The notes under the pieces were generated by a model. That model worked only from the letters and a program-made list of their open reading frames with translations, made no database searches and was not told where the DNA came from. Shown piece after piece: positions 2,678 to 61,446 of a DNA stretch of 64,000 nucleotides. The translations under genes were made by a program, and so were the position numbers. Within the stretch, counting starts at the first letter, position 1; every line of letters begins with the position of its first letter. The stretch is from Dehalobacter restrictus DSM 9455 (lineage in GTDB: Bacteria > Bacillota > Desulfitobacteriia > Desulfitobacteriales > Syntrophobotulaceae): assembly GCF_000512895.1 (NCBI RefSeq), contig NZ_CP007033.1, positions 1,847,001 through 1,911,000 on the forward strand, in the 5' to 3' direction.

Positions 2678-2782
2678 GTCTGCGTGGCACAGTTCCACGA
2701 TAAGCGGAGCAAGGATTGCGTAGCGCGGCCTTTTGCGTCAAGGAGGACGCAACGGCCGAAAGTGGTATTGTGGCACGCAGAC
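2678..2782 (+). repeat. Structured intergenic repeat, copy A
   Basis: A 105-nt element in the 467-bp gap between the lipoprotein and the antiporter. Ends pair: GTCTGCGTGGCACA (2678-2691) with TGTGGCACGCAGAC (2769-2782), 13 of 14 pairs. An inner hairpin pairs CGGCC (2726-2730) with GGCCG (2754-2758) and TTGCGTC (2733-2739) with GACGCAA (2746-2752), with the loop AAGGAG. The second full copy at 33314-33427 keeps the same fold with paired base changes. No reading frame is conserved. It is either a structured RNA or a small palindromic mobile element; the orientation given is that of the shared inner sequence. The rest of the gap (2448-2648) shows nothing recognisable. Confidence 0.75.
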
Positions 2783-33313: not shown

Positions 33314-33427
33314 GGGTAGGTCTGGGGGCCACAGTTCCGCTGTGAGCGGAGCACGATGCGGAGCGCGGCTTTTTGCGCCATGGAGGGCGCAATAGCCGAA
33401 AAGTGGTATTGTGGCCCCCAGACCTAC
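33314..33427 (+). repeat. Structured intergenic repeat, copy B
   Basis: The best-preserved copy: the 19-bp ends GGTAGGTCTGGGGGCCACA and TGTGGCCCCCAGACCTACC pair perfectly. Inside, TCCGC-tgtga-GCGGA forms a small hairpin, and CGGCT/AGCCG with TTGCGCC/GGCGCAA forms the larger one with loop ATGGAG. Compared with copy A (2678-2782) many paired positions changed on both sides (GTC/GAC to GCC/GGC; CGGCC/GGCCG to CGGCT/AGCCG; CGT to GGG in the end stem), which is what selection on structure, or repeated palindrome conversion, produces. It is in the 261-bp gap between the unknown protein and the flavoprotein. Confidence 0.8.
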
Positions 33428-33490
33428 CTAAGAGTGGTATAGCCGTCCGCCATAATCTTGTCGCTCCTGGCTTCTATGGCTCATTCGCCA

Positions 33491-55436: not shown

Positions 55437-55508
55437 AAAAAAGCATAAAGAATGAGGGGCGCAACAGAACTTAAGTCCCGTTGCGCCCCTCATTCTTTAT
55501 GCTTTTTT
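55437..55508. terminator. Strong 29-bp terminator of the haem operon
   Basis: AAAAAAGCATAAAGAATGAG continues GGGCGCAAC and pairs with GTTGCGCCCCTCATTCTTTATGCTTTTTT around a 14-nt loop: a 29-bp perfect stem with T-runs on both strands. The stop codon of the siroheme decarboxylase gene lies at its right edge. Confidence 0.92.
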
Positions 55509-61400: not shown

Positions 61401-61446
61401 GTCCACAGCTGGACCAGTGTGGTATTATGGCACACAGACCTACCTC
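61401..61446 (+). repeat. Structured intergenic repeat, copy C (decayed)
   Basis: GTGTGGTATTATGGCACACA followed by GACCTACC matches the right end of copies A and B (GTGGTATTGTGG...CAGACCTACC), and the upstream GTCCACAGCTGGACC is close to their left end; the middle is missing. It is in the 294-bp gap before the thioesterase gene. The rest of that gap (61322-61400) shows no other element. Confidence 0.55.

Follow-up and report, generated by a model that had tools for sequence, protein, structure and literature searches.

A dispersed family of TwoAYGGAY-like structured repeats in Dehalobacter restrictus with GGA hairpins that may bind CsrA

Background

The CsrA-sequestering small RNAs CsrB, CsrC and RsmX/Y/Z have been described in Gammaproteobacteria, where they are single genes with a promoter and a terminator and present GGA repeatedly in hairpin loops of the CsrA-site type. 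Bacillaceae-1 RNA, another RNA relevant here, is located in rRNA operons. Within Rfam, CsrB belongs to the same clan (CL00106) as TwoAYGGAY (RF01731), in which a closing stem surrounds two hairpins with GGA hexaloops. In 2015, CsrA binding in Clostridia was predicted for TwoAYGGAY, one stem of which contains GA motifs, and the reverse complement of Bacillaceae-1 RNA (RF01690) was predicted to carry CsrA-type hairpins (PMC4333381). No later test of the prediction for TwoAYGGAY was found in the literature searched by that name. SELEX yielded the CsrA site RUACARGGAUGU, mostly in hexaloops with GGA in the loop, and favoured stems of at most four pairs (PMC7652899).

Results and discussion

Two full copies in the window

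The window, by which we mean the whole stretch of 64,000 nucleotides from D. restrictus analysed here, contains two full copies of an intergenic structured element, both on the plus strand and both real where a sequence-only reading had placed them. Copy A spans exactly 2678–2782 and scores 116.7 bits with the covariance model of the family (E-value 6e-26 within the window). Its end stem, P1, pairs 2678–2698 with 2762–2782, and across the family each of the 20 P1 pairs varies on both sides somewhere. P1 encloses a small hairpin, P2 (2704–2724), with a conserved 5'-GNA/5'-GNA internal loop and a loop GGA at 2713–2715, and a large hairpin, P3 (2726–2758), with the loop C-AAGGAG-G at 2740–2745 (GGA at 2742–2744). 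Sequence and leader/trailer tallies show that the upstream leader (2640–2677) holds a remnant of the 3' end of another copy (CATGCAGACAAGCCCCAA), with ATTA immediately 5' of the stem. The 3' trailer at 2783–2792 reads AAGCCCAAAA, and the family consensus, tallied over 46 D. restrictus copies, is NNRCCCNAAA.

Copy B (104.7 bits) has its core at 33320–33423, and its stem is prolonged beyond the core by GGTAG/CTACC to about 33314–33428, the outer ends being approximate. Its P3 loop is ATGGAG (GGA at 33382–33384), while the loop of its small hairpin is CGA without GGA, so that copy B presents one GGA loop rather than two. A proposed third copy, C, proved to be merely a 3'-end remnant (GTGGTATTATGGCACACAGACCTACCT, 61419–61445, plus strand) at which the full model has no match, and the family covariance model detects only two full copies in the window, A and B. 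Both lie antisense to their flanking genes on either side, and their folds are far more stable than those of shuffled sequences (z −7.1 for A and −7.4 for B).

The paired changes reported between A and B are present in the sequences, namely CGT to GGG in the end stem with the matching change opposite, and GCGTC/GACGC to GCGCC/GGCGC and CGGCC/GGCCG to CGGCT/AGCCG in the large hairpin. At 55440–55507 the window also holds a long perfect inverted repeat with a T-run at its end (AAAGCATAAAGAATGAGGGGCGCAAC...GTTGCGCCCCTCATTCTTTATGCTTTTTT), which is unrelated to the A/B family and is probably a bidirectional terminator.

Copies across the genome and in relatives

A first DNA search returned 50 matches in the D. 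restrictus genome. A covariance-model search of the genome and its relatives, as the sequence-only reading had proposed, was then possible with a family model built from 28 copies, and placed the element at about 67 distinct places in the genome of Dehalobacter restrictus PER-K23, of which 46 scored at least 70 bits. The family makes up 0.25% of this genome. All five Dehalobacter genomes searched with the model carry it, with at least 55–64 copies each, and at least one copy was present in 10 of 56 other relatives, with dozens of copies in G015, G018 and G041; the distribution in Peptococcaceae relatives is patchy. Hosts in a pattern scan were Peptococcaceae bacteria, Candidatus Dichloromethanomonas elyunquensis and Gracilibacter, and a Phycisphaerae assembly gave one more candidate match.

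Orthologous copies hold their position between species in the related genomes compared. In a 19.5-kb stretch, all five elements have same-place counterparts in the Dehalobacter genomes checked, and recent movement was therefore not seen there. Orthologous copies diverge by 3.4%, compared to about 8% in their flanks, only once copies apparently replaced by another copy are excluded, and this slower evolution is for that reason not counted as evidence.

Structure, covariation and loop conservation

The family is a real, strongly supported structured repeat related to TwoAYGGAY. Some 20 pairs make up the P1 helix, which closes a three-way junction with the two hairpins, and the changes seen among copies keep the pairing well above shuffled controls in two alignments. 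In the first, a MAFFT alignment of 23 D. restrictus copies that was not fitted to the structure, 22 of the 37 pairs vary on both sides, and 95.4% of the cells are paired, compared to 85.4 ± 0.6% after shuffling. In the second, 102 distinct copies from several genera were fitted to the covariance model; 30 of the 37 pairs vary two-sidedly, 96.6% of the cells are paired (80.1% when shuffled), and two-sided cells number 550 against 124.5. The end stems differ wholly between copies and genera (GTCTGCGTGCC.., GTCTCCGTAATGG.., AGCTACACC.., GATGCAATG..) and all of them pair, while the loops remain unchanged, making the outer ends the most variable part of the element and the loops the least. In P1, G-U pairs fill 54 cells and A-C mismatches 8, an excess that shrinks to 9 versus 3 in 26 P1-distinct copies and is hence supporting only. 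P3 shows few G-U intermediates.

Unpaired parts had been read as nearly fixed, which holds for the GGA loops, for the GNA/GNA internal loop and for the GAAA at the three-way junction; the stretch GTGGTATTGTGG, in contrast, belongs to the 3' strand of P1 (2762–2782 in copy A) and is paired in the fold. P3 is capped by a hexaloop C-ANGGAN-G, and GGA occurs in 113 of 116 P3 loops, the hairpins having been chosen without requiring GGA, as well as in 100 of 114 P2 loops. The likeness of the loop to a Shine-Dalgarno sequence had tentatively been put down to chance, an explanation that does not fit: nothing in the family is more conserved than the loop GGA. In the P2 internal loop, G29, A31, G43 and A45 are invariant in 23 copies, and the base between G and A is variable on either side, a pattern as would be expected for sheared G-A pairs. 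The pattern GCCANGGANGGC occurs 84 times, compared to 7 occurrences of the reversed pattern.

Several copies contain an insert of 51–52 nt in P3 that bears further hairpins of the same GGA kind (for example GGCC-ACGGAT-GGCC, and GTCGC..TGCC-ATGGAT-GGCA-AGGA-GCGAC). Orthologous copies in different Dehalobacter genomes vary in having or lacking this insert at the identical point.

Relation to known RNAs

No Rfam model matched the window at its gathering score. The TwoAYGGAY model, which was constructed independently of this family, gave copy B 29.3 bits (E-value 0.02 for the genome, gathering threshold 43), and copy A was absent from the TwoAYGGAY matches at E-values up to 10; since the gathering score is not reached, the window copies are not to be called members of RF01731. 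The best D. restrictus copy scored 32.9 bits, copies in the Dehalobacter genomes G001 and G004 reached 37 bits, and in a relaxed search 27 of 32 weak D. restrictus matches fell inside the family. One copy in the relative G015 (L264) passes both models, with 45.2 bits for TwoAYGGAY and 83 bits for the family. Across the relatives, TwoAYGGAY exceeds its gathering threshold in 18 of 61.

The family resembles TwoAYGGAY in its closing stem around two GGA-hexaloop hairpins and in the GA motif in a stem. Unlike in strict TwoAYGGAY, its loops follow ANGGAN, with ATGGAT, ACGGAT and ACGGAC together accounting for 37 of 116 P3 loops, and it further differs by its approximately 67 dispersed copies and its modular GGA-hairpin insert. 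True TwoAYGGAY matches were also observed in relatives, mostly of a single genus (g12), as several copies per genome inside long outer inverted repeats, and multi-copy dispersal may accordingly be common in TwoAYGGAY.

D. restrictus also has standalone GGA hairpins. Three are found at 223284–223357, in the spacer of 16S rRNA, tRNA and 23S rRNA, on the strand opposite the rRNA. Another (488294) lies within the L10 leader region, directly before the ribosome site of the gene, and one more (584408) lies between apparent tandem T-box elements. The hairpins in the rRNA operon recall Bacillaceae-1 RNA, also in being antisense, and the sequences examined here gave no Rfam match to Bacillaceae-1.

A different element of approximately 121–155 nt was observed in G001 and G004 opposite D. 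restrictus position ~1105174, and in G001 at a second site opposite ~1112046; it is absent from both places in D. restrictus, and G004 has it at the first site only. In it, a terminator-like CTTGGC..GCCAAGTTTTCTTT comes after a GGA hairpin module, and the element seems to represent a second family, one that is sRNA-like and bears hairpins of the CsrA type.

A hammerhead-like ribozyme, considered for the GAAA at the three-way junction, was rejected in the absence of a CUGANGA-type strand, and other weak Rfam matches (plant microRNA models and similar) were taken as chance.

CsrA and a possible decoy function

D. restrictus encodes one CsrA, the gene of which lies just downstream of a gene identified by position and sequence as fliW. 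CsrA residues 1–52 align to RsmE of RNA-complex structures (2jpp and others), with conservation of L4 and R44, two residues known to contact RNA. Since csrA is present in 50 of 61 relatives, its co-occurrence with the copies is uninformative. It was not detected in the assemblies of G018 and G041, both of which are incomplete and carry many copies.

In RNA of the strand read, the P1 helix would enclose the three-way junction with its two hairpins, and P3 nearly always and P2 usually would offer a loop GGA, with the C-G closed P3 hexaloop ANGGAN presenting the core of a CsrA/RsmE site. Upon transcription, the GGA hairpins could bind the CsrA dimer, and the copies might then jointly serve as decoys that sequester free CsrA, or tag their host transcripts as CsrA targets. 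The family shares with CsrB, CsrC and RsmX/Y/Z the recurrence of hairpins whose GGA loops are of the CsrA-site type, and csrA is in the same genome. Unlike these single genes, the family is made up of numerous short copies for which no promoter was detected, and its P3 stems are longer than those that SELEX favours for CsrA sites. We consider it roughly as likely as not that this lineage-specific, dispersed and TwoAYGGAY-like element binds CsrA through its GGA hairpins.

An RNA is favoured by the covariation, by GGA and GNA/GNA loops that stay fixed despite the replacement of the end stems, and by the homology to TwoAYGGAY via the G015 copy. Against an RNA decoy stand the missing promoter signal, the missing orientation bias, the intact antisense copies and the hairpins antisense to rRNA. 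A sigma-70 signal upstream of the copies did not rise above shuffles (8.53 vs 8.47 shuffled, p 0.63), and no conserved terminator was seen in the trailers of the 46 D. restrictus copies. Relative to co-directional neighbours, 19 copies are sense and 21 antisense, and antisense solo copies score no worse than sense ones and show no decay. The occurrence of both orientations without a promoter implies that the copies use unrecognised or antisense promoters, or that many do not work as RNA.

Genomic context and alternative explanations

The sequence-only reading had left the choice between a structured RNA and a palindromic element of the REP or MITE type. The evidence leans towards RNA without closing that choice, and each side has support. 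Many copies with target duplications had been expected of a mobile element and few, expressed copies of an RNA, and on these terms the result is split, as the copies are many and lack target duplications.

The main rival is a palindromic repeat at the DNA level, in which the hairpins would act as DNA or in replication or transposition, the dispersal would be selfish or recombinational, and the GGA loops would be recognised by some DNA-binding or transposition protein. We hold this to be a genuine contender, though short of probable. Like REP/BIME elements and MITEs (compared with bcr1 of Bacillus cereus by description only), the copies are short, intergenic, palindromic and numerous, with pairs in opposite orientation; 10 of the 12 close pairs in D. 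restrictus are divergent, none convergent and 2 tandem, a BIME-like pattern that recurs in relatives. The spacers of these pairs measure 135–330 bases in D. restrictus and are unrelated in sequence. The dispersal over some 67 places, the absence of gene-orientation bias, the antisense hairpins of the rRNA spacer, the few G-U intermediates in P3, the palindromic half-copies L037 and L044 and one copy that travels with an IS1182-like element in two places likewise speak for a DNA repeat. However, conservation is lowest at the outer ends, which a transposase would be expected to target, and highest in the loops; conserved terminal inverted repeats of the MITE type are thus lacking, as the ends pair and their sequence varies between copies and genera. 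Copy-specific target duplications were not found either, leader/trailer similarity within copies equalling that between copies, and the five elements of the 19.5-kb stretch keep their places in the Dehalobacter genomes checked. The GTAG tag of REP elements, in the form of CTAC, occurs in only 5 of 46 trailers, on which ground a GTAG-tagged REP was rejected, and there is no other fixed terminal tag, and no association with RAYT was found. That an IS200-type transposase might bear the element at its ends was rejected for want of similarity there. The check for a related autonomous transposon covered the Y1 transposases, and the two genes of this kind have no copy at their ends.

The copy that travels with the IS1182-like element, at 656008–656113 and 1843292–1843397, has an unrelated end stem (GATGCAATGTCTA), adjoins the transposase gene and is duplicated together with it over at least 1.7 kb. 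The palindromic copies (L037, L044 and L033) are built from two 3' halves, which suggests hairpin-primed or template-switch rearrangement.

Alternatively, the copies could be cis-acting mRNA elements, with intra-operon hairpins that act without CsrA in transcript stabilisation, processing or attenuation. The very stable folds and the intergenic location, with 40 of 46 copies between co-directional genes, agree with this explanation, which we nevertheless consider unlikely, as half of the copies are antisense to their neighbours and the fixed GGA loops of both hairpins would be left unexplained. Chance inverted repeats of separate origin are rejected on account of the covariation, from which slid and shuffled controls are all far removed, the fold z-scores, and E-values down to 1e-25 in several genomes.

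Conclusions

To return to the CsrA-binding element, TwoAYGGAY was proposed a decade ago as the Clostridia counterpart of the gammaproteobacterial CsrA-sequestering RNAs. Dehalobacter, a cultured dechlorinating bacterium, offers a dense natural set of such elements, which makes this prediction directly testable. It is a tentative and on balance doubtful idea that CsrA control in Clostridia-related bacteria is set by about 67 RNA repeats per genome acting as a distributed decoy, in which species gain and lose GGA-hairpin modules; this would make it the first such system to lie outside Gammaproteobacteria and also the first to be built of interspersed repeats. If true, a repeat family would be spreading the binding sites of a regulatory protein through the genome, which may carry dozens of built-in CsrA decoys or landing sites.
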